From an uncultured Bacteroidales bacterium (GTDB taxonomy: Bacteria; Bacteroidota; Bacteroidia; Bacteroidales; Bacteroidaceae): DNA of 58,627 bases. Below the pieces are notes generated by a model. It was not told the DNA's origin, searched no databases, and worked only from the letters and a program-made list of their open reading frames with translations. Position numbers and translations under genes: made by a program. Numbering within the stretch: the stretch's first letter is position 1; each line of letters starts with the position of its first letter. Positions 3,772-50,303 of the stretch are shown here, piece by piece. The DNA lies in NCBI GenBank assembly GCA_902763865.1, contig CACWTR010000026.1, positions 1 through 58,627 on the forward strand, written 5' to 3'.

Positions 3772-3841
3772 GAATTCGGGCAAAGAGCAGAATAACCCTG
3801 AACGACCCCTGCAAAAAGTCGTCACAACACGATGCAAAACT

Positions 3842-3923: not shown

Positions 3924-4009
3924 AACTTTTACTCGCGTTGACTGACACTTTGTCCCGCGTTTTTACTATCTTTGCATACTGATTGACTGAACTAACAAAA
4001 CTTTTCACT

Positions 4010-25096: not shown

Positions 25097-25195
25097 GACA
25101 CGTCGGATTCGTTGCTTCATCGCGAACAAGCAATTGCTTCATCGCGATGAAGCAATCACTCCATCGCGATGAAGCAAACAACACGTCGTGTGACG
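25097..25195. repeat. Array of three 22-bp palindromes with GACACGTCG flank, copy 1
   Basis: Units at 25112-25133, 25134-25155 and 25156-25177. The perfect unit contains TGCTTCATCGCGATGAAGCA. The left flank is GACACGTCG plus six bases (GATTCG), as in the copy at 37363; the right flank contains ACACGTCGTGTGACG. Confidence 0.9.
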
Positions 25196-26690: not shown

Positions 26691-26814
26691 CGGACAACGT
26701 GGTCTAAAACTATTTTCATGGTTTGAAAATTAATTTTCACGTCATGAAAATATATTTTCACGGTTTGAAAATTGATTTTCACGTCGTGAAAATAGTTTTG
26801 TGTTGCGTTGTCCG
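26691..26814. repeat. TTTTCA palindrome array, copy 2, with terminal inverted repeats
   Basis: Four TTTTCA-N5-TGAAAA units (26712-26793, linkers TTAA, TATA, TTGA) lie inside flanks CGGACAACG (26691-26699) and CGTTGTCCG (26806-26814) with AAAACT next to the array on both sides. The whole 124 bp is a nested inverted repeat. It is the inverted form of the element at 3842-3923. The gap 26484-26909 holds this element, the PagL promoter and the -7 box TAACTTTG (26871-26878) of the S41 gene. Confidence 0.9.
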
Positions 26815-34409: not shown

Positions 34410-35681
34410 TTACCACTCTACGATTTGTGCGTCGCCGAAGCGGTCGTAGCCGCTGACAAGGACACGGTCGCCGGCATGGAGGCCGTCGAGCACTTCGTAG
34501 TGCTCTGCGTTCTGGCGGCCCAGGCGGATGGGGACGCGGTGTGCCCTGCGGCCCGACTCATCGACAAGCATCACCCACTGTCCGCCCGTCTGGGCGTAGA
34601 AGTTGCCGCGCGGTACGATGAGGCGGCGCTCGCTCTGCCCGAGCTCTATCTTCAGGCGAAGGGTGAGTCCGGGTCGCAACAAAGTCCCCGACTTATCTTT
34701 CGAAAGGAGGTTTCCGGTCAGCTCTACGGCAAACGTATGGTCCTGCACCTGCGGGGTGATGCGGCTGACCTGGAGGGCCAGGCTGCGGCCCTTGTAGGTC
34801 GCCGTGGCGGGTTGTCCGTCCTGAATGCGGTCTATGTAGTACTCGTTCAGTCGTGCCGTCACCTTGTAGTCGGTCAGCACTCCAATCTCGCCCAGCAGTT
34901 CGCCTGCCGACACCTGGCCGCCTACGACGGCGCCCAGGCCGGCTATCTGCCCGTCGGTAGGTGCGAGGACGACGAGGGCTTCGCGGCGTGCCAGGCTGTT
35001 CTCGAGCTTCTGTGCCTCCATCGACATCTCCTGCTCAATGAGCTGCCGGCCCACGATGTTGAGCACCGAGTCGTGGCGCAGGCTCTCGATGGTCAGCTGT
35101 GTGCGGCGGCGGTTGTAGTCGTACTCTTCGCGTGCCACCTCCAGCTGCGCCTGGCTCTTCACGCCCATGCGTGCCTCTTCCTGTTCCAGCTCGAAGTTCT
35201 TCGCCATCTTCCGCAGCTCGAAGTCTGCGGCGAGGGCTTGCTGCCTGAGTGTGATACTCTTCTGCTGCATCTCGATGAGCTGCCTGCGGTGCTGCATCTG
35301 GTTGTGTTCATAGTTGCGCCTTTCGGAGGCAATCTCTTCCAGCACCTTCGGGTTGGAGAGCACCAGGATGGTGTCGCCGCGGCGCAGCAGGTCGCCGTTC
35401 TGACAGCAGATGCGCTCGACGGTGCCGCCCTCGCTGGCCGTCACACGCACCGACGTGACGGGGCAGACCAGGCCGTTCACATCGACGTACTCCAGGAAGT
35501 CGCCGTCGCAGACCTGGGCTATCTGGTCGGCATCGACGTTGGTGCGGAGTGTCTTGGGTCGCAGTTGCAGGCTGGTGGCATAGCCTATCAGGGCCAAAAG
35601 CACAGCACCGCCCAGCAGGTGCAAGCGGTACTTCACGTACCAGGGTTTTTTCGGTAGTTTGATGTCCATATCGTTATTCAT
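34410..35681 (-). CDS. HlyD/RND-type periplasmic adaptor of the ABC exporter
   Basis: 423 residues. One N-terminal membrane segment (LLGGAVLLALIGYATSL, about 24-40), a split lipoyl/barrel-sandwich domain (VTASEGGTVERICCQNGDLLRRGDTILVL and later LAPTDGQIAGLGAVVGGQVSAGE), a coiled-coil hairpin between them (about 110-220), then beta-barrel and membrane-proximal domains. It should bridge the FtsX permeases to the TolC-type channel. Its start overlaps the end of the channel gene by 8 bp, so they are coupled and share the sigma-54 promoter at 37116-37133. Confidence 0.9.
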   Translation of the reverse strand: MNNDMDIKLPKKPWYVKYRLHLLGGAVLLALIGYATSLQLRPKTLRTNVDADQIAQVCDGDFLEYVDVNGLVCPVTSVRVTASEGGTVERICCQNGDLLRRGDTILVLSNPKVLEEIASERRNYEHNQMQHRRQLIEMQQKSITLRQQALAADFELRKMAKNFELEQEEARMGVKSQAQLEVAREEYDYNRRRTQLTIESLRHDSVLNIVGRQLIEQEMSMEAQKLENSLARREALVVLAPTDGQIAGLGAVVGGQVSAGELLGEIGVLTDYKVTARLNEYYIDRIQDGQPATATYKGRSLALQVSRITPQVQDHTFAVELTGNLLSKDKSGTLLRPGLTLRLKIELGQSERRLIVPRGNFYAQTGGQWVMLVDESGRRAHRVPIRLGRQNAEHYEVLDGLHAGDRVLVSGYDRFGDAQIVEW

Positions 35682-37104
35682 TATCCAGTTTAAGACTTCT
35701 CAGCCCGTAGTAGAGGCTCCAGTACGTCTGAAGGGCGGTGACGAAGGCTCGCTGGGCGTTGTCCTTCTCGTTGATGCTCGTGCCCAGCTCCAGCAGGCTT
35801 GTGCGTCCTTGCAGGTAGAGCCAGCGGGCCACGTCGTAGCGCCGCAGGGCCGTCTGGCGTGTGCGGTAGGCTATCTTCACGCGATAGGCCTGCAGGTTGT
35901 ACTGCCGCACCATCTTCAGCACGTTCAGGCGGAACTCCTGCATCGCCTGCTCGCTCTGCGTCTGTGTCAGCTCCAGCCGCGACTTCGCCACGCGCACCTG
36001 CCCTTTGCCGCGACCCCAGTCGAGCAGAGGCAGCGAGAGCGACAGGCTGACGTACTGCTGGTTGAGCGGTTTGTGATAGGCCTCCGCCACCGTAGCGCCC
36101 GTCTGCGAAAGGCCGAACTGCACGTAGAGGTCGGCTTTCAGTCCGCGGCTGGCCTTGGCTGCCGAGAGTGCGCTACGGCTCTCCTCGACGTTCAGGCGCA
36201 GTCTCTCGGGGTCCGGGTTGTTCCTGAGGGCCTGCTCCAGCACCTGGTCGGCATCCATCGTCTCCATGTGAACCAGGGTGTCCGTCACGACCGAGAGGGT
36301 CAGGTCCTCTTGGATGCCGAGATAGGTGCGCAGCGTCAGCATGGCATCCTCCACCTCGGCCTCCGCGTTCAGGCGGTTTGTCTCTTCGCTCAGCTTGCTC
36401 ACCTCCAGCTGCAGCATCTCGTTCTCCGTGATGCTGCCACGCTCGTAGCGGCGGAGAGCATAGCTGTGGAGCGTGTCGCTGACGGCGTAGTTCTGCCGCG
36501 CTATGTCGAGGTTCGTCTGTGCTACGGCGAGCATAAAGAAATAGGTACTCGCGCGCGAGGCCACCAGCTCCATCGTCTCGGCATACTGCTTGCGGGCCAC
36601 GCTGTGGCGCATCGGCTCGGTGCGTCGTGCCCATCGCAATGCGTTGTGCCCCAGCAGGCTCTGCCTGTAGCCAATGGAGAACGGCACGCTGCTGTAGCTG
36701 TGGTGCGACTGTTCGAACTCGTCCTGACGGTAGAGGTTGCTGCGCACGAAGAGCGTGCCGCCCGTGAACCAGACGTTCTGGCTGATGTCTATCGAAAGGT
36801 CGGTACTCAGCTGGTTCTGCCGCACAAAAACATCGGTACCGTCGGGCTGTGTGACGCGGCTCACCTGCCGGTTCAGCGTGGGCGAGCTGCTGAGCGTCAC
36901 CGACGGCAGGTAGTTGGCCTTATGGTAGCGGAAGCTCCACTCCGCCGACTCCAGTGCGTGGCGTGCCGCCAGTGCGTCAGCCGACTGCTGCTGCGCCAGC
37001 GTCACGGCATCGGCCAGCGTCAGCCTGAGCGTGTCAGTCGGCAGCGGCATCGGCATCGCCCGGCACGGCAGCATCAATAACAGGGTAAATAGTATCTGCT
37101 TCAT
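35674..37104 (-). CDS. TolC-family outer membrane channel protein
   Basis: 476 residues from ATG 37104; this start gives a signal peptide (MKQILFTLLLMLPCRAMP), although the frame stays open further upstream. Two OEP repeats are visible: TLADAVTLAQQQSADALAARHALESA and a second half beginning VLEQALRNNPDPERLRLNVEESR, each with long coiled helices and short beta stretches. It forms the outer-membrane exit of the exporter. It is the first gene of the tolC-hlyD operon. The predicted sigma-54 start of transcription is one or two bases before the ATG, so the message may be leaderless. Confidence 0.9.
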   Translation of the reverse strand: MKQILFTLLLMLPCRAMPMPLPTDTLRLTLADAVTLAQQQSADALAARHALESAEWSFRYHKANYLPSVTLSSSPTLNRQVSRVTQPDGTDVFVRQNQLSTDLSIDISQNVWFTGGTLFVRSNLYRQDEFEQSHHSYSSVPFSIGYRQSLLGHNALRWARRTEPMRHSVARKQYAETMELVASRASTYFFMLAVAQTNLDIARQNYAVSDTLHSYALRRYERGSITENEMLQLEVSKLSEETNRLNAEAEVEDAMLTLRTYLGIQEDLTLSVVTDTLVHMETMDADQVLEQALRNNPDPERLRLNVEESRSALSAAKASRGLKADLYVQFGLSQTGATVAEAYHKPLNQQYVSLSLSLPLLDWGRGKGQVRVAKSRLELTQTQSEQAMQEFRLNVLKMVRQYNLQAYRVKIAYRTRQTALRRYDVARWLYLQGRTSLLELGTSINEKDNAQRAFVTALQTYWSLYYGLRSLKLDNE

Positions 37105-37115
37105 ACCTATACTAT

Positions 37116-37133
37116 GACAAGATGCGTGCCAAA
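37116..37133 (-). promoter_or_regulatory. Sigma-54 promoter of the tolC-hlyD operon
   Basis: Minus strand TTTGGCACG-N4-TTGTC: -24 element TGGCACG at 37125-37131, -12 element at 37116-37120. Spacing is exact for sigma-54. The -12 has GT rather than the usual GC. The permease promoter at 42308 has the same extended GTTTGGCACG and the same TC before TTG. Confidence 0.8.
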
Positions 37134-37187
37134 CACTTATCTCACTGATAATAGGGAGGAAACGCTTCCGTCGTGTGCTTCCCTGCC

Positions 37188-37223
37188 CGTGCGACTCCGC
37201 ACGAATGTGTGCGATAGCGCACA
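37188..37223. promoter_or_regulatory. Paired enhancer sites upstream of tolC (predicted NtrC-type regulator binding)
   Basis: CGTGCGACTCCGCACG (37188-37203) and TGTGCGATAGCGCACA (37208-37223), both perfect palindromes of the form YGTGCG-N4-CGCACR, starts 20 bp apart. They lie exactly 56 bp from the -24 element, as in the permease promoter. Confidence 0.85.
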
Positions 37224-37347
37224 AAAAGCCACTCGTCACCAATAAAAGTGGGGGTAGGGTAGGGGAGTATGGAAGAAAATGACTACCTTTGCAGTCGAAA
37301 GGAGAAGAAAGGAGACTGCACACATATCAGTATGACCTTCCGGATGC

Positions 37348-37444
37348 GACACGTCGATTTCGTTGCTCCATCGCGATGGAGCAATTGCTTCATCGCGATG
37401 AAGCAATTGCTTGATGGCGATGAAGCAATGAAGACGACACGAGG
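37348..37444. repeat. Array of three 22-bp palindromes with GACACG flanks, copy 2
   Basis: Units at 37363-37384, 37385-37406 and 37407-37428, the middle one identical to the perfect unit at 25134 (inner 20 bases TGCTTCATCGCGATGAAGCA). The first unit has compensating changes in both arms (TGCTCCATCG with CGATGGAGCA). Left flank GACACGTCG (37348-37356) and right flank GACACGAGG (37436-37444). In the gap 37105-37503 the other signals are the sigma-54 promoter, the enhancer pair and a -7 box TACCTTTG at 37284-37291 for the regulator gene. Confidence 0.9.
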
Positions 37445-37503
37445 GGTACACTTTCACTGCGGGTCTCTCTAACCTACTGCTGACATCAAACAGACCTCAA
37501 AGT

Positions 37504-38868
37504 ATGGACGAAAGAAAAGGAAAGGTGCTCGTCATTGACGACAACGAAGACATCCTCTTTGCGCTGAACCTGCTGCTCAAGCCGCACGTTGAGGACATAC
37601 GCGTCACGACGCGACCCGAGCAGATCGACAAGTTCCTCGACATGGCGGAGCCCGACGTGGTGCTGCTCGACATGAACTTCAAGCGCGACACCATCAGCGG
37701 CGAAGAGGGCTTCGAGTGGCTGGAACACATCCTGCACCGCGACCCGCAGGCCGTGGTCATACTCATGACGGCTTACGCCGATGCCGACAAAGCGGTACGC
37801 GCCCTGAAGAGCGGCGCCACGGACTTCGTGACGAAGCCTTGGGACAACGCCAAGCTGCTGGCAACGCTCTCGGCAGGCATCAAGCTCAGTCAGGAACGGC
37901 ACAGGAGCCGCCTCCTGGAGCAACGCATGGAGGTGGCGGCATCGCCCTTCGGAGCAACAGCTGCCCCGACCATCATCGGCGAGAGTCCCGTCATGCAGCG
38001 CCTGCTGCGGACCGTGGAACAGGTGGCTCCGACGGATGCCAACGTGCTCATCCTCGGCGAGAACGGCACGGGCAAGGACGTCATAGCCCGCCGGCTGTGC
38101 GCCCTCTCCGCTCGCGCCGCAAAGCCCTTCGTCAGCATCGACCTGGGCAGCGTGCCGGAACAGCTCTTCGAGAGCGAGCTCTTCGGCTACGAAAAGGGGG
38201 CCTTCACCGATGCCCGCAAGCCGAAAGCCGGACGCATGGAGGCCGCCAGCAGCGGCACGCTCTTCCTCGACGAGATTGGCAACCTGACCCTTCCCCTGCA
38301 GGCAAAGCTCTTGGCAGCACTGGAGCGACGCGAAATCTCGCGCCTCGGCAGCACACAGCTGACGCCCATCGACGTGCGCCTCATCTGCGCCACGAATGCC
38401 GACATCCGCGGCGAGGTGAACGAAGGGCGCTTCCGTCAGGACCTGCTCTACCGCATCAACACCATCGAGATCACCATCCCGCCGCTGCGCGAACGCGGCG
38501 AGGACATCATCCTGCTCGCCGAGCACTTCCTGGCCCTCTACGCACGCAAGTACGGCAAGCCGAAGCAGACGCTGAACCGCGACGCACGCCAGCGGCTGCT
38601 GAAGCACACATGGCCCGGCAACGTGCGCGAGCTGATGCACGCCGCCGAGCGGGCAGTGCTGCTCGGCAAGGGCACAACGCTCTGCGCACAGGACTTCGTG
38701 CTGGAGGAACCCTCGCGACGCAACCAGCAGATGCAGACGCTGAACCTGGAACGCCTGGAGCAGGAAGCCATCAGCCGCGCCATGCAGATAGCGGGCGGCA
38801 ACGTCACGCATGCTGCCGAACTGCTGGGCATCACACGCTTCGCACTCTACAGGAAACTGAGCAAATGA
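37504..38868 (+). CDS. NtrC-family sigma-54-dependent response regulator
   Basis: 454 residues in three domains. The receiver (1-125) has the acidic pair IDDNED and phosphorylation site Asp56 in VVLLDMNF, then MTAYAD and the switch Lys in TKPWD. The AAA+ domain (about 150-390) has Walker A GENGTGKD, the sigma-54-contacting GAFTDA loop (ELFGYEKGAFTDA), and Walker B GTLFLDEIG. The C-terminal Fis-type helix-turn-helix reads GNVTHAAELLGITRFALYRKL. It should activate the two sigma-54 promoters on either side. The kinase gene lies downstream. Confidence 0.95.
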   Translation: MDERKGKVLVIDDNEDILFALNLLLKPHVEDIRVTTRPEQIDKFLDMAEPDVVLLDMNFKRDTISGEEGFEWLEHILHRDPQAVVILMTAYADADKAVRALKSGATDFVTKPWDNAKLLATLSAGIKLSQERHRSRLLEQRMEVAASPFGATAAPTIIGESPVMQRLLRTVEQVAPTDANVLILGENGTGKDVIARRLCALSARAAKPFVSIDLGSVPEQLFESELFGYEKGAFTDARKPKAGRMEAASSGTLFLDEIGNLTLPLQAKLLAALERREISRLGSTQLTPIDVRLICATNADIRGEVNEGRFRQDLLYRINTIEITIPPLRERGEDIILLAEHFLALYARKYGKPKQTLNRDARQRLLKHTWPGNVRELMHAAERAVLLGKGTTLCAQDFVLEEPSRRNQQMQTLNLERLEQEAISRAMQIAGGNVTHAAELLGITRFALYRKLSK

Positions 38869-38885
38869 AGATAGCTATTATATAA

Positions 38886-38992
38886 AACAACGGATTATAC
38901 GGATTATACGGATTATATGAGCCTTTCAAGGCTCAGGAATCTGTTTAATTCATCTGCTGAAAGATTCCTTTCAATCCTTTCAATCCGTTGTT
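38886..38992. repeat. Repeat element between regulator and kinase genes
   Basis: AACAACGGATT (38886-38896) and AATCCGTTGTT (38982-38992) are an 11-bp inverted pair enclosing three tandem 9-bp CGGATTATA units and a GAGCC/GGCTC hairpin. It resembles other composite palindromic elements here and holds no gene. Confidence 0.75.
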
Positions 38993-39016
38993 AAAACATC
39001 ATCCAAGTTAAATGAA

Positions 39017-40657
39017 ATGAAGACATACATATTATATATAATAGGGCTTATCGGCCTGATGACCTGTCTGGCCCTCAGCATCCGTGCGGGACTGCTATGG
39101 CCGTCCGCCGCCCTGGGCGTGGCGCTGCTGTGGCTGTGCCTCTCGCTCTACGGACGCATCGGACGACTGCTCTACGCCTACCGCGAGACGGAAAAGGAGA
39201 ACGAACACCTGCACACCCGCCTGGTCGAGGCCGAGCGACAGTTGCAGTACCTGCGGCAGCTCACCGAGAATGTCGATACGGCTCTCTTCGTCTGCACCAC
39301 CGACGGACGCATCGATTGGATGAACCACGCCGCAACCCTGTTCTCCTCCCCCTCGGGCCTCTCCCCCGTGAAGTTCCCCTCCCTCACGGGGGAGGGGTTA
39401 GGGGAGAGGCCGGGGAATCTGCCGCCCCACATCCTCTCGGCCATCGCCGAGCACAAAGAGGTGGTGGACGGCTGCGCCCTCTCCACCGTACTGCTGCGCA
39501 TCGACGGACGGCGACGGCTCATCGTGGCGCTGAAGGACGTGTCGATGCTGATGCAGCAGCAGGAGATGGAGGCCTGCTGGCAGCTCATCCGCGTGCTGAC
39601 CCACGAGATTATGAACTCCCTGACGCCCATCATCTCCATCAGCGAGACGCTCGCCGATTCCCTCCCCCTCGATGGAGGACAGGAGGGGGCTGCCGTCATC
39701 AACCGCCGCTGCCACGCACTGCTCGACTTCGTGGAGAGCTACCGCCAGCTGACGCGCATCAAGCAACCCGAGCGGACACAGTTCCCCGTCGCAGACCTCT
39801 TCGCCCACATAAAGGCACTCTACAGCCTCTCCCCCGGCCCCTCCCCCGTGGGGGAGGGGAGCAGGCAGCCTGCAAAAGTAACTTGTTCCCCCTCCACCAC
39901 GGGGGAGGAGAGCAGGCAGCCTGCAAAAGTGACTTGTTCCCCCTCCACCACGGGGGAGGTGAGCAGGCAGCCTCCAAAGGTAACCTTTTCCCCCTCCCCC
40001 ACGGGAGAGGGGAGCAGGCAGCCTGCAAAGGTAACCTTTTCCCCCTCCCCCGTGGGGGAGGGGAGCAGGCAGCCTGCAAAAGTAACCTTTTCCCCCTCCC
40101 CCACGGGGGAGGAGAGCAGGCAGCCTGCAAAGGTAACCTTTTCCCCCTCCACCACGGGAGAGGGGAGCAGGCAGCCTGCAAAAGTAACTTGTTCCCCCTC
40201 CACCACGGGGGAAGGGAGCAGGCAGCCTGCAAAGGTAACCTTTTCCCCCTCCCCCACGGGGGAGGGGCAAGGGGAGAGGCTATCCCTCTTTGCCGACCGT
40301 TCCCAGATAGAGCAGGTCCTCATCAACCTCATCAAGAATGCCTACGAGAGCGGCGCCACGGAGGTAGAGCTCACGGCCTCCGAGACCCTCTCTAACTCCC
40401 CATTAAAGGGGGAGAACTCCCTCCCTTTAAGGGAGGGCAGGGGAGGGTCTGTTATCTGTGTTCGCGACAACGGCTGCGGCATGTCGCCCGACGTCCTCGC
40501 GCAAGCCTTCATCCCCTTCTTCACCACCAAACAGGCCGGCACCGGCATCGGCCTCGCCCTCTGCCGACAAATCATCCTCAAGCACGGCGGCACCATCACC
40601 ATCGACAGCGAGGAAGGCCGCGGCACCACCTTCACCATCTCACTCCCTAAAGCCTGA
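39017..40657 (+). CDS. Sensor histidine kinase with a 51-bp repeat array inside the ATPase region
   Basis: 546 residues. Two N-terminal membrane helices (about 5-45), a short coiled coil, a PAS domain (about 78-175), a DHp helix with phospho-acceptor His196 in LTHEIMNSLTP, then an ATPase domain: N box QVLINLIKNAYES, G1 VRDNGCGM, FIPFFTTK, and G2 GTGIGLALCRQI. Between the DHp domain and the N box lies an insertion of about 140 residues, eight copies of a 17-residue unit (SRQPAKVTFSPSPTGEG-like). Two or three further palindrome-derived inserts are in the PAS and ATPase domains. It presumably phosphorylates the neighbouring NtrC-type regulator. Confidence 0.92.
   Translation: MKTYILYIIGLIGLMTCLALSIRAGLLWPSAALGVALLWLCLSLYGRIGRLLYAYRETEKENEHLHTRLVEAERQLQYLRQLTENVDTALFVCTTDGRIDWMNHAATLFSSPSGLSPVKFPSLTGEGLGERPGNLPPHILSAIAEHKEVVDGCALSTVLLRIDGRRRLIVALKDVSMLMQQQEMEACWQLIRVLTHEIMNSLTPIISISETLADSLPLDGGQEGAAVINRRCHALLDFVESYRQLTRIKQPERTQFPVADLFAHIKALYSLSPGPSPVGEGSRQPAKVTCSPSTTGEESRQPAKVTCSPSTTGEVSRQPPKVTFSPSPTGEGSRQPAKVTFSPSPVGEGSRQPAKVTFSPSPTGEESRQPAKVTFSPSTTGEGSRQPAKVTCSPSTTGEGSRQPAKVTFSPSPTGEGQGERLSLFADRSQIEQVLINLIKNAYESGATEVELTASETLSNSPLKGENSLPLREGRGGSVICVRDNGCGMSPDVLAQAFIPFFTTKQAGTGIGLALCRQIILKHGGTITIDSEEGRGTTFTISLPKA
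39840..40268 (+). repeat. 51-bp tandem array, eight full units plus a partial, in frame in the kinase gene
   Basis: Units start at 39840, 39891, 39942, 39993, 40044, 40095, 40146 and 40197, with a partial unit at 40248. Each has a CTCC(N)CCACGGGGGAG-like palindrome followed by AGCAGGCAGCCTGCAAA. 51 bp is 17 codons, so gain or loss of units keeps the frame. All six frames stay largely open. Confidence 0.97.
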
Positions 40658-40714
40658 TTCCCATCTCCCCAAAGAGCAAAACTATTAAATCCTGCACAGA
40701 AATCAAGGAAAAAC

Positions 40715-40745
40715 TTGGATTATTGTGCAAATACTGCTAACTTTG
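40715..40745 (+). promoter_or_regulatory. Promoter of the AbiE-type toxin-antitoxin pair
   Basis: TTGG (40715-40718), 19 bp, TAACTTTG (40738-40745). The leader to the GTG start at 40765 is about 13 nt. Confidence 0.7.
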
Positions 40746-40764
40746 CACAAAAAAACTAAGCATC

Positions 40765-41394
40765 GTGAAGGAGAATCCATTGGTAAAGTTCGGGAGTGTG
40801 CCCGTGCAAACGGGTGTACTGTCTGCTTGTTTTGACAATTTGTCATCGCCCAGTGAAAAGATAAGGGCGTTGGAAAAGGACGGGCAACTGATTCGTCTGA
40901 AACGTGGCCTCTATGTGGTGGCGGGCCAAGTGAGTGGTAAGCCTGTCAATGCCTGTCTGTGCGCAAACCACATCTACGGTCCTTCATACGTGTCAGAACA
41001 TTGGGCACTTCGATGGTACGGACTGATACCGGAGCGTGTCTATACGATGACCTCGGTCACAACCAAGCGTTCTCGCCAGTTTCGCAATTCATTGGGTCTG
41101 TTCACCTACGCCCAAGTGAGACCCGACTACTTTTCCATCGGCATTGACAGCACCGAGGAAGACGGAGTGACGTTTCTCATGGCAAGCCGTGAGAAAGCAC
41201 TTTGCGATTTCATTCTCCACGACCGCCATATACCCTCACAGTCACTCAAGGCACTATGGCAGTACCTGGAAGAAGACATACGCTTCGATATGGACGAACT
41301 GGCTACATTCGATGTCAGCATCATCAAGGCCTGTGCCACGTGCGGACGAAAGGAGAGCATACTTAACAACCTAATAAAGATTATAAAGCAATGA
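40765..41394 (+). CDS. AbiEi-like antitoxin (type IV toxin-antitoxin)
   Basis: 209 residues, GTG start. The N-terminal winged-helix segment (LSACFDNLSSPSEKIRALEK then LKRGLYVV) is the usual AbiEi DNA-binding part, and the C-terminal domain includes PSYVSEHWALRWYGLIPE, the conserved SxxSALxxxGL-type segment of the family. Antitoxins of this class repress their own promoter and counter the toxin without direct binding. The last 4 bases overlap the toxin start (ATGA). It lies between the kinase and the permease genes, unrelated in function. Confidence 0.85.
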   Translation: MKENPLVKFGSVPVQTGVLSACFDNLSSPSEKIRALEKDGQLIRLKRGLYVVAGQVSGKPVNACLCANHIYGPSYVSEHWALRWYGLIPERVYTMTSVTTKRSRQFRNSLGLFTYAQVRPDYFSIGIDSTEEDGVTFLMASREKALCDFILHDRHIPSQSLKALWQYLEEDIRFDMDELATFDVSIIKACATCGRKESILNNLIKIIKQ

Positions 41395-42212
41395 CCATAT
41401 ATGACAAGATGGTGGCTGTGTATGCAGAAGAGAGAGGGACAGCCACTCCCAACGTAGAGCAGGAAGTGATGCAACGCATAGCACTGGCAGGACTGCACAG
41501 AGGCGGCTTCTTCCAGCACGCTGCTTTCTATGGCGGCACATGTCTGCGACTGTTCCACAGTTTGCCCAGATACTCAGAGGATATGGATTTCACGCTGACA
41601 GAAAAGCGTGGGGATATTCACCTGGAGAATTACTTCCCCGCCATTGTCGAAGAGTTTCGCCTGGCAGGCCACGAAGTAAGCATAGCTAAGAAAGACAAGA
41701 AAATCTTCGGTCGTGTAGAGTCGGCATTCTTGAAGGAGAATACTGAGGTTTACGACATCAAGTTCCAGACAAAGAAGACCATCAAGGTAAAGATAGAACT
41801 TGACATTGACCCACCTTTAGGGTTCACTACGGAACAATTAGCGATGCAGCTGCCATATTCGTTTATGTCACGCTGCCTGGTGTTGCCTGACCTCTTTGCA
41901 GGAAAGTTGCACGCACTGGTTTACCGAAACTGGAAAACGAGGGTGAAGGGGCGCGACTGGTACGACTTCGAGTGGTATGTCCGCTGGAACATCCCACTCA
42001 ACTTCGCCCACCTCCAGGAACGCATCCATGAATTCAGCGGTGTCATTATTGACAAGACGACCTTCTTGGATATGCTCCGAGAGAAACTGGCAACAACGGA
42101 TATAGAACAAGTGAAGGCAGACGTAAGAGGCTTTGTTGACAATACCCGCGAACTCGACATCTGGTCTAACGACTACTTCCTGATGCTGGCCGACAAGATA
42201 GTGTTCCTATAA
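41391..42212 (+). CDS. AbiEii-like nucleotidyltransferase toxin
   Basis: 273 residues. The nucleotidyltransferase motif GGTCLRLFHSLPRYSEDMDFTL contains the GG(S/T) and DxD pattern of the AbiEii/AbiGii family; the later KIELDIDPP and the helical LFAGKLHALVYR segment also fit. Relatives are toxins that modify tRNA or other targets by nucleotide transfer, and some AbiE pairs give phage resistance. The target here is unknown. It is coupled to the antitoxin, and the enhancer sites of the permease operon start 5 bp after its stop. Confidence 0.88.
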   Translation: MTIYDKMVAVYAEERGTATPNVEQEVMQRIALAGLHRGGFFQHAAFYGGTCLRLFHSLPRYSEDMDFTLTEKRGDIHLENYFPAIVEEFRLAGHEVSIAKKDKKIFGRVESAFLKENTEVYDIKFQTKKTIKVKIELDIDPPLGFTTEQLAMQLPYSFMSRCLVLPDLFAGKLHALVYRNWKTRVKGRDWYDFEWYVRWNIPLNFAHLQERIHEFSGVIIDKTTFLDMLREKLATTDIEQVKADVRGFVDNTRELDIWSNDYFLMLADKIVFL

Positions 42213-42217
42213 AGCTT

Positions 42218-42253
42218 TGTGCATTTCCGCACGGTTGTGAGCGGAAGCGCACA
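42218..42253. promoter_or_regulatory. Paired enhancer sites upstream of the permease operon
   Basis: TGTGCATTTCCGCACG (42218-42233) and TGAGCGGAAGCGCACA (42238-42253), one mismatch each from TGTGCG-N4-CGCACR symmetry, starts 20 bp apart, exactly 56 bp before the -24 element at 42310. This is the same arrangement as at 37188-37223, in opposite orientation. Confidence 0.85.
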
Positions 42254-42307
42254 GTGGAGGCAAGGGCGGAAAGCATCGCAACTTGCAGAGAACTTGTGCT
42301 TTCACGG

Positions 42308-42325
42308 TTTGGCACGGTTCTTGAT
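42308..42325 (+). promoter_or_regulatory. Sigma-54 promoter of the permease operon
   Basis: TTTGGCACG-N4-TTGAT: -24 TGGCACG at 42310-42316, -12 at 42321-42325. Predicted transcription start is near 42336, leader about 55 nt. Confidence 0.8.
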
Positions 42326-42390: not shown

Positions 42391-44781
42391 ATGAAACAAG
42401 CATTCCGACTCATCTCCCGCATGAAGGGCTACACAGCCCTCTCGCTGCTCGGCCTCACCATCTCGCTCAGCGGCACCGTCATCATCAGCCGCTACCTCTA
42501 TCAAGAATGGACCATTGACCATTGGATGCCCGACCTGGACAGGACTTACATCTTGTGCCAACGCTACGTCAATGGCATTTGGGGGGATGAACCAACGCCC
42601 GGTTTGGCTTGGAATCCCAACAAAACAGAGGGCTTCGTGTCGCCTACTTTGGGACAGAGCGACGTGGAAGCCTTCTCGGATGTCCATCTGCTGCAGAACG
42701 GTTACTACATCATATTGGATAATGACGAGACCATAACCGCCCCCACTATCAGCGTTGACAGCAGTTTCGTTGATGTCTTTCCGTTGCAAGCTTTGGAGGG
42801 CACGCTGGTGCTGCGTACAGAAGGGCAGGCCATCGTGAGCGATGACTTCGCCCGTCGCCACTTCCCGGGCGAGAGTGCTGTGGGGAAGACCATGAAGATG
42901 GGTGACGAGAATACATTGCATACCATCGTGGGCGTGTTCCGTCAGCCATCGAGCAAGAGCACAATCCACTTCGATGTCGCCAACTATGCACGCAGGGACT
43001 GGTGGGTTGGCAATGCCCTTAACTTTACGATGATAAAGCTGGCGAAGGGCGCAAGCATGGAGGCATATAACGAGCGTCAGCCCAGGAATTCAAGGGGTAG
43101 CATGAATCCCGAGTTCCATTTTATGCTTGTACCCTATACGGGTAACCTGAGAAGGCTGGTTGATAGTTATAGTCAGGAATTCCGAACCATTCCTTCGCTG
43201 AGTCCGTGCAGCAGCCCGCAGTACCTGTGGATGCTCTTCGCCGTCGCCGTCCTGCTCTTCCTCGTCGGCATCTTCAACTTCCTGAACCTCTTTGCCGTGA
43301 TGCGCAGCCACCGCCGCCACGAGCTGGAGGTGCGCCGCCTGTTCGGTGCCTCGCGCTGGGACATCTTCTGCCAGCTTTATGCCGAGACGTTCCTGCTCGC
43401 CCTGCTCACGATGATAGGCGTATGGACTGTCGTGGAACTCATGGAGCCGCTGCTCGCTACCTATTATAATATAGAGGTCTTGCCGCAGCGGACGTTCGAT
43501 GTGGGGCTGACCGTAGGGATTGTTTTCGGCTTGCCACTGATAGTAGGTTTCATTCCACGGAGGCTCCCCACCTTCGGGGAGGGGCTGGGGGTAGGCATCC
43601 AATTCTTCATCTCCCTGACCCTTATCACCGTCAGCATCTATATGATGCGTCAGTTGCACCTGATGATGGATGGCGACCCGGGCTACAGGACAGAAGGCAT
43701 CCTCCACATCGTCCCCAAGCCCAGGGAAGACTACAACCGCATCAGGATGGATGACAACGGGAATATATATAACGTCGATAACAGTAGGGGAGAAAAGGCT
43801 ATGGCTGTCTTGAAGAAGCTGAGGGAATGCCCCTACATCCAAAGCATCATCAAGGACCCCGACATGATAGGTGCCGCTGAACTGATGGAAATAGAGGGGC
43901 AGAAACTGGTGTACAAGGAAATGTGCCATAATACGATGGAGATGTTCGGGCTGGAATTGCTGGAAGGAAGAGAATTAAACGACACGCTGGACGACTACTC
44001 ATACAATTGCCTGCTCAATGAAACAGCAGTACGACGTTTGGGACTGAAGGACTGGCGAAGCGCAAAGGTGCAGCTCCCCGACCGTTGGTGGTGGGCAAGC
44101 AGTCAGGATTGCTCAGGCAACCCGCCCTACAACGTGGTGGGCATCGTGAAGGACTTCCATCCCGGTCGTCTCTCAGAGCCACAGCCTCCCATCATCTTCT
44201 TCCCAACCCTGAACTGGGACAGCCAGACGATGGACTATCTGCCCGATGACTTGCTATTGAGCATTGCTTCGGCTGGCGAGGAAGATGTAATAAAGTACCT
44301 GCGCCAGATGAATAAGGAAGTGTGGGGCACGGAAGACTTGGAATACAACTGGCTCTCCGACCAGAAGGATGAACTCTACCGCGAGGACCGTCGCACGGCA
44401 CGCATCTTCTTCACCTTCTCGCTGCTGGCCATTGCCGTGACGTGCCTCGGCGTGCTCGGCCTGATGATGTTCGACGTGCGCCGCCGCTACCGAGAGATAG
44501 CGCTTCGCAAGATCAACGGCGCCACGTTCCGCGACATCGCCCTGCTGCTCTCGCGCCGCTACCTTATTATATTGGCTGCCGCAGCCGCCGTCAGCATTCC
44601 CGTCTCGCTCGTCGGCCTGCACCAGCTTGTTACGCGCTACTACACCATCCACGCCACTATCGCCTGGTGGATTCCACTCGTGAGCATCGCCATCGTCCTG
44701 CTGCTCTGCGCCCTCACCCTCTGGCAGCAAGTCTGGAAGGCAACACGCATCAAACCCTACAAAGTATTGAAGGAGAACTAA
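42391..44781 (+). CDS. FtsX/MacB-type ABC transporter permease, paralogue 1
   Basis: 796 residues. Two FtsX cores: N-terminal helix (LSLLGLTISLSGTVIISRYL), a periplasmic domain, three helices around 280-400, then a second periplasmic domain (about 420-660) and three C-terminal helices, ending KATRIKPYKVLKEN. Part of a MacB-like exporter with the downstream ATPase. Its first 50 and last 135 residues are nearly identical to paralogues 2 and 3. A linker at about residue 390 (RRLPTFGEGLGVG) is encoded by a CTCCCC/GGGGAG palindrome absent from the others. Confidence 0.92.
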   Translation: MKQAFRLISRMKGYTALSLLGLTISLSGTVIISRYLYQEWTIDHWMPDLDRTYILCQRYVNGIWGDEPTPGLAWNPNKTEGFVSPTLGQSDVEAFSDVHLLQNGYYIILDNDETITAPTISVDSSFVDVFPLQALEGTLVLRTEGQAIVSDDFARRHFPGESAVGKTMKMGDENTLHTIVGVFRQPSSKSTIHFDVANYARRDWWVGNALNFTMIKLAKGASMEAYNERQPRNSRGSMNPEFHFMLVPYTGNLRRLVDSYSQEFRTIPSLSPCSSPQYLWMLFAVAVLLFLVGIFNFLNLFAVMRSHRRHELEVRRLFGASRWDIFCQLYAETFLLALLTMIGVWTVVELMEPLLATYYNIEVLPQRTFDVGLTVGIVFGLPLIVGFIPRRLPTFGEGLGVGIQFFISLTLITVSIYMMRQLHLMMDGDPGYRTEGILHIVPKPREDYNRIRMDDNGNIYNVDNSRGEKAMAVLKKLRECPYIQSIIKDPDMIGAAELMEIEGQKLVYKEMCHNTMEMFGLELLEGRELNDTLDDYSYNCLLNETAVRRLGLKDWRSAKVQLPDRWWWASSQDCSGNPPYNVVGIVKDFHPGRLSEPQPPIIFFPTLNWDSQTMDYLPDDLLLSIASAGEEDVIKYLRQMNKEVWGTEDLEYNWLSDQKDELYREDRRTARIFFTFSLLAIAVTCLGVLGLMMFDVRRRYREIALRKINGATFRDIALLLSRRYLIILAAAAAVSIPVSLVGLHQLVTRYYTIHATIAWWIPLVSIAIVLLLCALTLWQQVWKATRIKPYKVLKEN

Positions 44782-44783
44782 AT

Positions 44784-47159
44784 ATGAAACAAGCATTCCG
44801 ACTTATCTCCCGCATGAAGGGCTACACAGCCCTCTCCCTGCTGGGCCTCGTCATCTCGCTCAGCGGCACCGTCATCATCGCTCGCTACCTGCACCAGGAG
44901 TGGACCATCGACCATTGGATGCCAGACCTTGACAGGATATGCTTCGCCCTAAGGGAGGAGTACGAGAGCGACGATCCTAATGAAGGCCGAGGCGCTATGG
45001 TCGCAATGAAGATGCCAAAGGATGGGCATCCCATCACAGAGACAGAGGGCGTGGAGGCCGCAACCAGTGTATGGCTGCGCAGCCTGTTCTCGGTAAAGCT
45101 GGGGGGCGAGAAGACCTTCACCGTCTGCACCATCAGTGCCGACAGCGACTTTGTCAAGGTCTTTCCCCTGAAAGCCGTCGAAGGCACGCTGGATCTGCGC
45201 GTCACAGGAAACTCCATCATCAGCGAGACGCTGGCCAAGAAGATGTTCCCAGGCCAAAGCGCCGTCGGACAGACATTCATGGCAGAAAATCGTCTGCACA
45301 CCGTGACGGGCATCTTCCGCGAACCTTCCACGAAGTCCAGCCTGCACTATGAGATGGTGACGTACGCAGAGGATGAGGGATGGTTCAACAACACCGTGCA
45401 CTATACCTTCGTCAAGCTGAAGGAGGGCTTGACCCGCGAACAGTTCAACGCACGGCAGGTCAAGCAGAAAGGTGTCACAGCATTCAGTTATGGGAATGAC
45501 AACAAGGAAGTCCTCTGGAATTACAAGCTGGAGCCGTACGATTATTTCCTGGCCTACACGAACCATGAGAACTGGCCGTCGGTGAACAAACCCAGTTCGA
45601 AGGAGCACCTGTGGATGCTGCTGGCCGTCGGCATACTGCTCTTTTTCGTTGGCATTTTCAACTTCCTCAACCTCTATGCTGTTATGCGGCATGCACGCAA
45701 TCATGAGATGACGGTGCGCCGTATCTTTGGCGCCTCGCGCACGGACATCTTCTCGATGCTCTACATGGAGAACCTGCTCATCAGTGCTCTCGCTATGCTT
45801 GGCGTGTGGATGGTAGTCGAACTGATAACGCCCCACATGAAGGAGTGGTTCAACATGGAGCAGATGACGATGCCCGTCTTCGACACCGTCCTGTCGCTTT
45901 GCATCGTGCTGCTTTTGCCGCTGGTCAGCGCAGCCGGGAAGGTAAAAAGAAGCGGCAGGGGCTCTAATCTCTTCCTATTCCTCCAGTACTTTATTTCCAT
46001 TTCCCTCATCACCGTGAGCCTCTACCTGATGCGGCAGCTACGCGTGATGATGACGGCAGACCCGGGGTTCAATACAGAGAATGTCATCTCCTGTTTGCCA
46101 TATACGTCCGACATGTACTCGCACGAAGACATGAACAAGGAGGTGACAGACCGCCAGCTCTTCAGGGAGCGCATGCGCGAGAGTCCCTTCGTACACGACC
46201 TTTGCGAAGACCAGAATTTCATGGCCGAGAAGTACGAGATTCAGGACGCTAACGGGACGAGCATGTACTGGATGAAGATGAACGAACACATACAGAATGT
46301 CCTGGGCCTGGAGATTCTGGAAGGGCGCGGCCTATGCGATTCGCTCGACAGCCACAGCAACACTTACCACTGCGTCATCAACGAGACGGCCCTGAAACGC
46401 CTGGGGCTGAAGAACTGGCGCACGGAGGGTATCCCCCTCTCTTATTATCTACACGTTTCGAGTGACACTGACCTCTCCAAGAGTCCCACCTATCAGGTGG
46501 TAGGCATTGTGAAGGACTTTCATCCTATGAAGCAGTCGGAGCCACAGCCGGCCATCTTCTTCACATACGAACAAGACAAATACGACCAGCAACATACCGT
46601 CTATTACATAGGTTCCTCGGAGAAACGCACGCTGGTGAGCATCGAGCCAGGCCACGAAGCGGAAGCCATAACTTACTTGAAGAAGGTGGAGAAGGAGGTC
46701 TTCGGCAAGGACGACCTGGACTACCATTGGTTCAGCGACGAGGTGAAGGCCATGTACGAGGAGGACCGCCGCACGGCACGCATCTTCTTCACCTTCTCGT
46801 TGCTGGCGATTGCCGTAACGTGCCTCGGCGTGCTCGGCCTGATGATGTTCGACGTGCGCCGCCGCTACCGAGAGATAGCGCTTCGCAAGGTCAATGGCGC
46901 CACGTTCCGCGACATCGCCCTGCTGCTCTCGCGCCGCTACCTTATTATATTGGCTGTAGCTGCCGCTGTCAGCATCCCCGTCTCGCTCGTCGGTCTGCAC
47001 CAGTTGATTACGCGCTACTACACCATCCACGCCACAATCGCCTGGTGGATTCCACTCGTGAGCATCGCCATCGTCCTGCTGCTCTGCGCCCTCACGCTCT
47101 GGCAGCAAGTCTGGAAGGCAACAAGAATCAAACCCTATCAAGTATTGAAGGAGAACTAA
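44784..47159 (+). CDS. FtsX/MacB-type ABC transporter permease, paralogue 2
   Basis: 791 residues, start 2 bp after the stop of paralogue 1. Same topology. The N-terminus MKQAFRLISRMKGYTALSLL and the C-terminal block EDRRTARIFFTFSLLAIAVT onward are shared with both neighbours, while the two periplasmic domains are strongly diverged. This suggests three different substrate- or partner-facing surfaces on a common membrane core. Frames open upstream of this ATG are the overlapping end of paralogue 1 and are not coding. Confidence 0.92.
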   Translation: MKQAFRLISRMKGYTALSLLGLVISLSGTVIIARYLHQEWTIDHWMPDLDRICFALREEYESDDPNEGRGAMVAMKMPKDGHPITETEGVEAATSVWLRSLFSVKLGGEKTFTVCTISADSDFVKVFPLKAVEGTLDLRVTGNSIISETLAKKMFPGQSAVGQTFMAENRLHTVTGIFREPSTKSSLHYEMVTYAEDEGWFNNTVHYTFVKLKEGLTREQFNARQVKQKGVTAFSYGNDNKEVLWNYKLEPYDYFLAYTNHENWPSVNKPSSKEHLWMLLAVGILLFFVGIFNFLNLYAVMRHARNHEMTVRRIFGASRTDIFSMLYMENLLISALAMLGVWMVVELITPHMKEWFNMEQMTMPVFDTVLSLCIVLLLPLVSAAGKVKRSGRGSNLFLFLQYFISISLITVSLYLMRQLRVMMTADPGFNTENVISCLPYTSDMYSHEDMNKEVTDRQLFRERMRESPFVHDLCEDQNFMAEKYEIQDANGTSMYWMKMNEHIQNVLGLEILEGRGLCDSLDSHSNTYHCVINETALKRLGLKNWRTEGIPLSYYLHVSSDTDLSKSPTYQVVGIVKDFHPMKQSEPQPAIFFTYEQDKYDQQHTVYYIGSSEKRTLVSIEPGHEAEAITYLKKVEKEVFGKDDLDYHWFSDEVKAMYEEDRRTARIFFTFSLLAIAVTCLGVLGLMMFDVRRRYREIALRKVNGATFRDIALLLSRRYLIILAVAAAVSIPVSLVGLHQLITRYYTIHATIAWWIPLVSIAIVLLLCALTLWQQVWKATRIKPYQVLKEN

Positions 47160-47161
47160 AT

Positions 47162-49522
47162 ATGAAACAAGCATTCCGACTTATTTCCCGCATGAAGGGC
47201 TACACAGCCCTCTCGCTGCTGGGCCTCGTCATCTCGCTCAGCAGCACCGTCATCATCGCTCGCTACCTGCACCAGGAATGGACCATCGACCATTGGATGC
47301 CCGACCTCGACAGGACGTATGTATTGATGGAAGAGAGATCTGATAATAATCCTTTCCCGGCAATGTTCTATAAAAGCTTCCTTGGGCGTGCAGAACTCCA
47401 GTCACCTTTGGACGGACAGAACGAGATAGAGTATTTCTCGTATGCGAGCACCTACACGACGCTGCAATTGAAACTGGATGGGGAAGAGATGCTGAAGCCG
47501 CTGGCCTTGAAGGCTGACAGCATGTTCCACAGGTTCTTCCCCCTGAAGGCTGTGGCCGGCACGTTGGTATTGCGCCACGAAGGGGATGCCATCATCAGCG
47601 AAGAACTGGCTGCACGGCTCTTTCCCGAGGGGGAGGCTGTTGGGCAGACCCTGACGACGGACAACGGACAACTGCGCACTGTTATCGGCGTCTTTCGGAA
47701 ACCCGCCTCGAAGCTTTCGCTGAACTTCGACTATGTAGAATATGAGGCAGAAAACCCCTTCAATAATCAGGGTAATGTCTTCTACATGGTCAGACTTCAC
47801 CCAGGGGCCAGCGTGAAGACCTACAACAAACGCCAACCCGTACAGACTCCCAACGTATTCGAAATGGAGGGGCGTACACTGCGTTTTCAGCTGGCTCCAT
47901 ACGAAGGACTGCTTTCACAGCTATGGGGCGAAAGGGACGTTACCGTTAGGAGTGTCAGCTCGCCCAAATACCTGTGGATGCTCTTTACCGCCAGCGTGCT
48001 GCTCTTCCTCGTCGGCATCTTCAACTTCCTGAACCTCTTTGCCGTGATGCGCAGCCACCGCCGCCACGAGCTGGAGGTGCGCCGCCTCTTCGGTGCCTCG
48101 CGCCTCGACATATTCTCGATGCTCTACATGGAGAACCTGCTCATCAGCGCTCTAGCCATGCTTGGTGTGTGGATGGTCGTCGAGCTGACCACGCCGCACA
48201 TGAAGGACTGGTTCAGCATTGAGCAGATGAGCATGCCCCTCTTCGACACGACGCTGTCACTCTCAATCATATTTATATTGCCTCTTATAGCAATCGTAGG
48301 AAGGTTGGGCAAGGCTGGGGCAAGGTCTTTCCTTTTCCTCCAATATTTCATATCCATCACCCTCATCACCGTAAGCCTCTACCTGATGCGGCAACTGCAC
48401 TTCATGATGGGCAGCGACCCTGGCTACCGTACCGAGAATATCCTGAACTGTACACCCTATCCTTCACGAACATGGACGGGAAGCGGCGGGCCCACTATGG
48501 ATTGGTTCGAAAAAATGAAGAACGACAGCAAGCTACTGAACGACCGCCTGACGGCATGCCCGCATATCAAAAGCTTCTGCTCCTCAGGATACATTTATAA
48601 AATGGGTAACGAGTTGTCGGTCAATAATGTCTCGCTTGAATACCAAGGCATAAGCCCGCAGCAGATGGAGATGTACGGTCTGGAAGTCGTTCAGGGTCGG
48701 GCTTTCAACGACACACTGGACACCAGAGAACAATATCGCTGCCTCCTGAACGAAACAGCTATCCGACAACTGGGCATCAAGGACATTGAGAAAGAGACGG
48801 TTCTGCCTGCAAGGCGTCTGTGGTGGATTTTTGACTACACGACTGGCAGGATGCCCGATGAACAACCGCTCGTGCCCTACGAGATAGTGGGTGTAATACG
48901 CGATTACCATCCTGGCAAACTATCCGAACCTCAACCCGGCATGTTCTTTGCTTATCGTAAGGAAGAACCTGACAGACTGAATGGTTCTGAGGTGGCGGTC
49001 GAAGTTATGCCCGGGCATGAGAAGGAAGCTATTGAATACATACAGAAGACGTCGCGCGAAATCTTCCATGTGAAGGAATTGCCTTATCATTGGCTCAAAG
49101 ATGATGTAGCCAGCCTCTACGAGGAGGACCGCCGCACGGCACGCATCTTCTTCACCTTCTCGTTCCTGGCGATTGCGGTAACGTGCCTCGGCGTGCTCGG
49201 CCTGATGATGTTCGATGTGCGCCGCCGCTACCGCGAGATAGCCCTCCGCAAGGTCAACGGCGCCACGTTCCGCGACATCGCCCTGCTGCTCTCGCGCCGC
49301 TACCTTATTATATTGGCTGCCGCAGCCGCCGTCAGCATTCCCGTCTCGCTCATCGGCCTGCACCAGTTGATAACGCGCTACTACACCATCCACGCCACAA
49401 TCGCCTGGTGGATTCCCCTCGTGAGCATCGCCATCGTCCTGCTGCTCTGCGCCCTCACCCTCTGGCAGCAAGTCTGGAAGGCCACAAGAATCAAACCCTA
49501 TGAAGTGCTGAAAGAACAATAA
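47162..49522 (+). CDS. FtsX/MacB-type ABC transporter permease, paralogue 3
   Basis: 786 residues, start 2 bp after paralogue 2. Same topology and shared ends; the middle section VEVRRLFGASRLDIFSMLYM then ENLLISALAMLGVWMVVELT is closer to paralogue 2, while the start of the membrane block (LFLVGIFNFLNLFAVMRSHR) matches paralogue 1, suggesting mosaic exchange. It ends KATRIKPYEVLKEQ. The ATPase gene follows after 106 bp with a CTCTCCC/GGGAGA palindrome. Confidence 0.92.
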   Translation: MKQAFRLISRMKGYTALSLLGLVISLSSTVIIARYLHQEWTIDHWMPDLDRTYVLMEERSDNNPFPAMFYKSFLGRAELQSPLDGQNEIEYFSYASTYTTLQLKLDGEEMLKPLALKADSMFHRFFPLKAVAGTLVLRHEGDAIISEELAARLFPEGEAVGQTLTTDNGQLRTVIGVFRKPASKLSLNFDYVEYEAENPFNNQGNVFYMVRLHPGASVKTYNKRQPVQTPNVFEMEGRTLRFQLAPYEGLLSQLWGERDVTVRSVSSPKYLWMLFTASVLLFLVGIFNFLNLFAVMRSHRRHELEVRRLFGASRLDIFSMLYMENLLISALAMLGVWMVVELTTPHMKDWFSIEQMSMPLFDTTLSLSIIFILPLIAIVGRLGKAGARSFLFLQYFISITLITVSLYLMRQLHFMMGSDPGYRTENILNCTPYPSRTWTGSGGPTMDWFEKMKNDSKLLNDRLTACPHIKSFCSSGYIYKMGNELSVNNVSLEYQGISPQQMEMYGLEVVQGRAFNDTLDTREQYRCLLNETAIRQLGIKDIEKETVLPARRLWWIFDYTTGRMPDEQPLVPYEIVGVIRDYHPGKLSEPQPGMFFAYRKEEPDRLNGSEVAVEVMPGHEKEAIEYIQKTSREIFHVKELPYHWLKDDVASLYEEDRRTARIFFTFSFLAIAVTCLGVLGLMMFDVRRRYREIALRKVNGATFRDIALLLSRRYLIILAAAAAVSIPVSLIGLHQLITRYYTIHATIAWWIPLVSIAIVLLLCALTLWQQVWKATRIKPYEVLKEQ

Positions 49523-49628
49523 AAAGACCCTCTCGGCCTCTCCCATAACCCCTCTCCCGTGGGAGAAGGGAAATAAATGATAGATAGAAAATGATTAAAT
49601 GGTAAATAATTAAATGGTAAATGAAAAG

Positions 49629-50303
49629 ATGATTCAGACTATCAACCTGCAGCGTGCTTTTACGACAGAAGAGGTGCGCACCATCGCCTTGAACGGCGTG
49701 AACCTTGAGATTAACGAAGGCGAGTTTGTCGCCATCATGGGCCCCAGCGGTTGCGGCAAATCGACATTGCTCAACATTCTCGGCCTGCTTGATGCGCCGA
49801 CGGGCGGGCAGTATCTGCTCGGCGGACAGGACGTGACGCCGCTGAGCGAACCCGAGCGCGACCGACTGCGCAAGGGACTCATCGGCTTCGTCTTCCAGAG
49901 CTTCAACCTCATCGACGACCTCAGCGTAGAAGAGAACATCGAACTGCCGCTGCTCTACATGCGGATGCCGAAGGCCGAGCGACGCAAGCGTGTGGAGGAA
50001 GCCATGCGACGCATGGACATCAGTCACCGCGCCAAGCACTTCCCGCGGCAGCTCTCAGGCGGTCAGCAGCAGCGTGTCGCCATCGCCCGGGCCGTCGTCT
50101 CGCGGCCAAAGCTCATCCTTGCCGACGAGCCAACGGGCAACCTCGACTCCAGAAACGGACGTGAGGTGATGGAGCTGCTGAGCCAGTTGCACGACGAGGG
50201 AGCCACCATCGTCATGGTGACGCACTCTCAGCGCGATGCAAGCTACGCACAACGCATCGTCAATCTCTCAGACGGCCAGATCGTCACGGAAGTGGAGATG
50301 TAA
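49629..50303 (+). CDS. ABC transporter ATP-binding protein (MacB/LolD type)
   Basis: 224 residues from ATG 49629 (MIQTINLQ; another ATG at 49614 is possible). Walker A GPSGCGKST, Q-loop FVFQSFNLI, signature LSGGQQQRVAIARA, Walker B LILADEPTGNLDS, and switch His in MVTHSQRD. It energises the FtsX permeases in the same operon. Its 3' end overlaps the convergent gluQ-like gene by 20 bp. Confidence 0.95.
   Translation: MIQTINLQRAFTTEEVRTIALNGVNLEINEGEFVAIMGPSGCGKSTLLNILGLLDAPTGGQYLLGGQDVTPLSEPERDRLRKGLIGFVFQSFNLIDDLSVEENIELPLLYMRMPKAERRKRVEEAMRRMDISHRAKHFPRQLSGGQQQRVAIARAVVSRPKLILADEPTGNLDSRNGREVMELLSQLHDEGATIVMVTHSQRDASYAQRIVNLSDGQIVTEVEM

Follow-up and report, generated by a model that had tools for sequence, protein, structure and literature searches.

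A sigma-54 enhancer of near-constant geometry probably links an NtrC-type two-component system to a tripartite ABC exporter in Bacteroidota

The window analyzed here is an entire contig of 58,627 bases from an uncultured Bacteroidales bacterium, the assembly of which (2.91 Mb in 75 contigs) is 84% complete. Genes for an NtrC-type response regulator, a histidine kinase, and an AbiEi/AbiEii-like pair are flanked by a leftward TolC-HlyD pair and by a rightward row of permease and ATPase genes. Very probably, this two-component system switches on a tripartite ABC exporter, encoded by the two flanking operons, through an unusually rigid sigma-54 enhancer. The enhancer sites, their conservation, their fixed geometry, and the match between dyad and recognition helix all emerged from sequence comparison.

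Each flanking operon is preceded by a predicted sigma-54 promoter of the form TGGCACG-N4-TTG and, further upstream, by two palindromic dyads whose starts are 20 bp apart, on the left and right alike (coordinates in Table 1). On each side, 56 bases separate the proximal dyad from TGG (37132-37187 on the left; 42254-42309 on the right). These elements had been described in an earlier note on this DNA and were confirmed base by base; TGTGCG-N4-CGCACA is matched perfectly by only one of the four dyads, the other three having one or two mismatches. The scan of the whole genome that the note had called for, using a pair pattern built from both sites and allowing up to three mismatches, returned two matches in the 2.91 Mb assembly, each with three mismatches; within the assembly, the paired sites occur only at these two places.

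Relatives of the regulator at E <= 1e-90 were found in 119 of the 301 genomes of the family. The sample compared below comprised 79 loci of such relatives in other genomes, chosen approximately by best score, plus the window and one stretch of the window's own genome around another activator; counts across loci are unweighted by tree. A motif was counted when a dyad pair stood before TGG[CT]A with a spacing of 19-22 bp and a gap of 53-59 bp, the -12 triplet not being required. The expectation that the paired sites would be kept in orthologous loci was borne out: where the regulator was at least 50% identical, 63 of 73 loci, counting the window, had the pair; where it was less similar, none of the eight did. 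Altogether, 68 matches were observed in 1.05 Mb of orthologous loci and none in reversed sequence, and the -12 triplet, though not demanded, was TTG in 66 of the 68. In a metagenome-assembled genome from roe deer rumen (L183), which encodes a regulator 95% identical to that of the window, neither the right dyads nor the two promoter cores differ from those of the window, and the left dyads have changed at 2 of 32 bases (one in the central N4, one outermost), despite the divergence of much of the surrounding DNA. A scan of GTDB species genomes yielded at least 119 stretches with the motif; judging by names, 80 of the 80 titles listed belong to Bacteroidota, and the genera among the matches listed include Bacteroides, Phocaeicola, Parabacteroides, Prevotella, and Paraprevotella, in addition to a Muribaculaceae isolate.

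The sites could in principle be chance palindromes lying near chance matches to a -24/-12 promoter. A looser pattern, which matched in 63 of the 301 family genomes, with 5 hits for its reversed control, did pick up coding DNA, and at least seven of its matches (G156, G114, G099, G184, G134:C24, G208:C49, and G044) resemble, by eye, chance matches in coding sequence. However, the stricter motif was absent from five Markov shuffles totaling 5.25 Mb, the pair is confined to two places in the assembly, and its conservation is strong; on these grounds we reject a chance origin, the probability of which we consider negligible.

The gap had been preset in both the GTDB scan and the looser-pattern loci, which are hence uninformative on geometry. 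Distance was instead assessed by letting the gap, measured from the edge of the dyad 14-mer to TGG, vary between 0 and 160 bp, with a dyad spacing of 20-21 and the TTG box required. The gap was 54-58 bp in 66 of 70 combinations, 49 of them at 56, across 61 of the 73 loci. The earlier note had argued from the two flanks of the window that the spacing is under selection, and its constancy across orthologous loci upholds that argument; the geometry is not, however, special to this locus, since it recurs in relatives and paralogues. When dyad pairs 12-60 bp apart were tallied on both strands, a spacing of 20 or 21 accounted for 152 of 196 counts. By the 14-mer measure, the window has a gap of 57 and a spacing of 20, which add up to 77, the total seen most often (84 of 138 non-redundant sites). 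The consensus of the 80 sites among these 138 with spacing 21 and gap 56 reads GTGCG-N4-CGCAC twice, then TTGGCAYR-N3-TTTG; the base after TTTG shows no preference for C (A 45, T 25, C 21, and G 9%).

Identical spacing in the window might also reflect recent common origin, if one promoter arose as a copy of the other during the splitting of a single exporter operon. The close relatives L046 and L048-L051 (83-86% identity) show one such promoter, located before the permease genes, and in L048 the TolC-HlyD genes lie at the far end of the permease row; the window and L052 have two such promoters. A history of this kind may explain the origin of the second promoter but not its maintenance, for the geometry persists in many loci whose spacers have more than 12 differing positions, and also in paralogues where the dyads have another sequence. 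Copying is largely refuted by the conserved sites across genera, and as the source of the fixed spacing we consider it improbable.

A second conserved block was located in the spacer, spanning positions -19 to -7 relative to the T of TGGCA. It fits the IHF consensus, WATCARNNNNTTR; neither this block nor the -12 TTTG box had played a part in site selection. Over the 138 non-redundant sites, the mean IHF score was 6.88 of 9 at offset -19 and 4.61 or less at every other offset, with 64% of sites scoring at least 7 of 9. The left spacer of the window contains such a site (Table 1), which the earlier note had overlooked. Three matches to the HU/IHF family were found in the genome.

As the note had stated, the gene between the two operons encodes an NtrC-type activator with a GAFTDA loop, which both Pfam and alignment support; its domains are a receiver, a sigma-54 AAA+ domain, and a Fis-type helix-turn-helix (Pfam Response_reg, Sigma54_activat, and HTH_8). 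Across 81 aligned rows the loop reads GAFTDA in 62, GAFTGA in 15, and GSFTDA in 3, with a gap in 1. The genome has one rpoN (PF04552 match, 162 bits) and three strong sigma-54 activator domains (218-228 bits), with three more at 22-32 bits.

The recognition helix of the window regulator is ITRFALYRK, and regulators with a GTGCG pair share the form [IV][TS]R[FY]xLYR[KR]. Other recognition helices go with other dyads. A GTACG class was represented by fifteen Bacteroides paralogues with a TRTSLYRR helix: a sigma-54-like site was found in 14 of the 15, each with at least one GTACG half-site, and a full GTACG-N4-CGTAC dyad in eight (L303-L310). With spacing free between 15 and 35 and gap free between 20 and 120, the best GTRCG-N4-CGYAC pair had a spacing of 21 and a gap of 55 in 13 paralogues; of the other two, L310 has a single dyad at 55 bp and L301 no sigma-54-like site. 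Several pairs of this class retain a GTGCG-like half-site, so the change is partial. Within a distant set of 47 loci (7 from the regulator-locus sample, 40 fetched additionally), RQTLYNK helices were accompanied by TGTCTAA-TTAGACA-type pairs in 10 of 36 loci and RPT[LF]Y helices by TGTAAAG-CTTTACA-type pairs in 3 of 11, the proximal centre lying 63-65 bp from the T of TGGCA. In these distant classes the IHF score at offset -19 was 1-5 of 9 in ten of the 14 listed sites and 7-8 in the other four; by eye, several of the low-scoring spacers fit IHF one base further out. A sequence-blind scan (22-150 bp, spacings 14-30) recovered pairs in both groups. In the main group, 20 of 96 sigma-54-like sites had a pair, with the centre at 62-64 bp in 13 cases; in the distant group, 12 of 46 sites had one, in 6 cases at 63-64 bp. 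Shuffled controls had pairs at 0 of 62 (main) and 0 of 43 (distant) sites.

By these comparisons, the dyad class tracks the recognition helix of the neighboring regulator. This correspondence bears on a further alternative, in which another regulator, such as a repressor, binds the dyads and the neighboring NtrC-type protein works at other sites. Against it, dyad and adjacent helix change together, and the fixed distance to a sigma-54 promoter fits an activator; we regard this alternative as highly improbable.

The window kinase has two predicted membrane helices (4-22 and 26-44) joined by a 3-residue loop, and no periplasmic domain. By a hydropathy rule applied to 76 kinases, 53 (window included) have two helices and a loop no longer than 8 residues, 12 have one helix, and 11 have none. 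This survey suggests that the signal is probably sensed within the membrane or the cytoplasm. Because the exporter resembles darobactin-type exporters, our guess, and the least certain part of the account, is that the stimulus may be a peptide or an envelope stress that the exporter relieves. The kinase gene itself encodes 546 aa here, as compared to 352-376 aa in five of six close orthologues and 431 aa in L046. An in-frame 51-bp minisatellite (39838-40267; 8.4 copies of GC-rich palindromic units) lies between the dimerisation and ATPase domains, and smaller inserts are also present. Palindromes like its units were found elsewhere in the genome.

The earlier note had predicted a complete local circuit. 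Its parts (sites, activator, kinase, and two operons) are present by sequence comparison; for its operation, we infer phosphorylation, binding, sigma-54 dependence, and bending as follows. The histidine kinase, anchored in the membrane without a periplasmic sensor domain, would phosphorylate the NtrC-type regulator, two dimers of which would then occupy the dyad pair, at roughly -90 and -110 relative to the start site. In many relatives, a bend of the spacer by IHF or HU would assist. The bound regulator would contact sigma-54 polymerase at TGGCACG-N4-TTG, and ATP hydrolysis would open the promoters. Activation would yield TolC and HlyD from one side and, from the other, three FtsX-type permeases and an ATPase; these proteins would make up a tripartite ABC exporter. 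Both halves would be induced at the same time, since a copy of the switch precedes each.

Several observations weigh against this scheme. The motif as defined is missing from 10 of the 73 orthologous loci: L047 and L071 are truncated by contig ends, L097 and L099 have the GTACG form, L111 has a mixed form and an altered helix, L117 has its pair at a different distance, L116 has single dyads, and no pair was found in the fetched stretch of L083, L100, or L104, the genomes of which match elsewhere. The right promoter of the window has no IHF site (5 of 9 positions). In the distant set, a scan spanning 52-75 bp found no such pair in 34 of the 47 loci (13 positive). Finally, the 11 of 76 kinases without a predicted membrane helix, and the 12 with one, weaken a simple model of contact with the transporter; because of the former, sensing through contact with the exporter can be offered only as an inference.

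The 138 non-redundant sites lie before a TolC relative in 79 cases, a permease in 23, the ATPase in 6, and the regulator in 4; in 26 the downstream gene matches none of the window proteins. A family scan of ten downstream proteins, three of them without any family, identified two 6-bladed propeller proteins, a thioredoxin-like protein, and two CarboxypepD-reg proteins encoded after the motif in other species. In L174, L179, L224, and L294 a second copy of the motif was observed in the stretch, before a permease or an ATPase, which suggests that regulons of several operons occur. In Rufibacter and Pontibacter (L165 1792-1936; L176 427-571), a single dyad pair is flanked by two divergent promoter-like sites of the same spacing, which face the regulator gene and a permease, respectively; their -12 boxes are poorer.

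Table 1. Features of the predicted switch and the genes around it, in positions of the window.
Feature	Position	Strand	Basis and remarks
HlyD/MacA-type periplasmic adaptor	34410..35681	-	Pfam HlyD_3, HlyD_D23; NCBIfam RND_mfp above its cut-off
TolC-type outer membrane channel	35674..37104	-	Pfam OEP
Left predicted sigma-54 promoter, TGGCACG-N4-TTG, TGGCACGCATCTTG	37131-37118	-	Sequence; kept in relatives
IHF-like site, TATCAGTGAGATA, 8/9 consensus positions	37138..37150	-	Block peak at exactly this offset
Left proximal dyad, CGTGCG-N4-CGCACG, CGTGCGactcCGCACG	37188-37203	.	Sequence
Left distal dyad, TGTGCG-N4-CGCACA, TGTGCGatagCGCACA	37208-37223	.	Sequence
NtrC-type response regulator	37504..38868	+	Pfam; alignment
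Histidine kinase, HEIMN box, in-frame repeat insertions	39017..40657	+	Pfam; hydropathy
AbiEi/AbiEii-like pair	40765..42212	+	Pfam
Right distal dyad, TGTGCA-N4-CGCACG, TGTGCAtttcCGCACG	42218-42233	.	Sequence
Right proximal dyad, TGAGCG-N4-CGCACA, TGAGCGgaagCGCACA	42238-42253	.	Sequence
Right predicted sigma-54 promoter, TGGCACG-N4-TTG, TGGCACGGTTCTTG	42310-42323	+	Sequence; unchanged in L183
FtsX/MacB-type permease 1, about 8 predicted membrane helices, no ATPase domain	42391..44781	+	Pfam
FtsX/MacB-type permease 2, 52% identical to permease 1	44784..47159	+	Pfam
FtsX/MacB-type permease 3, 52-54% identical to permeases 1 and 2	47162..49522	+	Pfam
ABC ATPase, MacB/LolD/DarD kind	49614..50303	+	Pfam; NCBIfam DarD 284.6 bits, cut-off 375

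The gene assignments of the earlier note agree with the Pfam domains listed in Table 1; the AbiEi/AbiEii-like pair and the kinase minisatellite went unmentioned there. The ATG of TolC (37104) is 27 bp from the T of TGGCA, approximately at the predicted transcription start, and a leaderless or nearly leaderless TolC mRNA is therefore predicted; at the sites of relatives, the first in-frame ATG is 40-60 bp from that T in 59 of 126. The AbiEi/AbiEii-like pair lies between the kinase and the right promoter and ends 5 bp before the right distal dyad. It has no match in L046 and L048-L051 and is common to the window and L183; it thus looks like an insertion that spared the switch and is probably not part of it. 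A 22-bp palindromic tandem repeat, TTGCTTCATCGCGATGAAGCAA, occurs at two places, 37363-37429 (between the left dyads and the regulator gene) and 25112-25177, and related AT-rich palindromic repeats of 21/42 bp form two arrays, at 3841-3930 and 26711-26794.

The NtrC-family systems AtoSC, ZraSR, and NtrYX share with this one a REC-AAA+-Fis regulator, a HEIxN-type kinase, paired upstream dyads, and a -24/-12 promoter, and the family models for AtoC, ZraR, NtrX, and PEP-CTERM regulators all match the window regulator, each below its cut-off. Here, by contrast, the targets are different, the enhancer distance is near-constant across species, the loop is GAFTDA rather than GAFTGA, and the -12 box is TTTG without a subsequent C; elsewhere, C usually follows. 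The exporter shares with DarBCD and MacAB-TolC a separate FtsX/MacB-type permease, an ATPase, an adaptor, and TolC, and its proteins score below the NCBIfam cut-offs for DarD (284.6/375 bits), DarC (122.2/450), and DarB (59.5/700). It differs in having three consecutive permeases, which come closest to the duplicated ADOP kind (below cut-off). MacB is a permease fused to an N-terminal ATPase; the permeases here, unlike MacB, have MacB_PCD and FtsX domains only, and the ATPase is a separate gene. Bce-type modules likewise place an FtsX-type exporter next to a kinase whose two membrane helices are joined by an external loop that is very short or nearly absent, and combine that kinase with an OmpR-type regulator. 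Here, by contrast, the regulator is NtrC-type and would act with sigma-54, and some kinases of the group have no predicted helix.

Sigma-54 has been studied in Flavobacterium psychrophilum (SM4), for which the accessible part of the report describes mapped -24/-12 promoters, three PF00158 proteins, and envelope and surface genes, and mentions no enhancer pair, spacing rule, or exporter switch (PMC9723704). A second source, as far as its available portion extends, connects sigma-54 in Bacteroidota with protein quality control and metabolism and leaves such a switch unmentioned (PMC12316311). A lead from Bacteroidales clusters for ribosomally synthesized and post-translationally modified peptides was dropped, since the excerpted text contains a generic histidine kinase-response regulator pair in one cluster and not the word 'sigma' (PMC10352776). 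In the open-access literature, screened mainly by listings, no account of the paired-dyad layout was found, and little was found in print on the sigma-54 regulons of gut Bacteroidota. If they hold, the rigidity across genera and the match of helix to palindrome look new; the two-component kind itself is known.

A broader proposition, which we put forward tentatively and with somewhat less than even confidence, is that NtrC-type regulators of Bacteroidota share one rigid layout. The dyads would be about 21 bp (two turns) apart, and the centre of the nearer one would lie about 63-65 bp (six turns) from the -24 box. The DNA between would often carry an IHF-like bend, and only the dyad sequence would vary, following a few residues of the recognition helix. 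The textbook sigma-54 enhancer loops freely and tolerates changes in distance. If the shared layout is true, activation would by contrast need a fixed nucleoprotein complex, and regulons would be readable directly from genome sequence. The switch points to exporters and offers a natural test of whether position and helical face can be fixed for sigma-54 enhancers; a conserved promoter grammar would permit regulon prediction for these two-component systems in many commensals.

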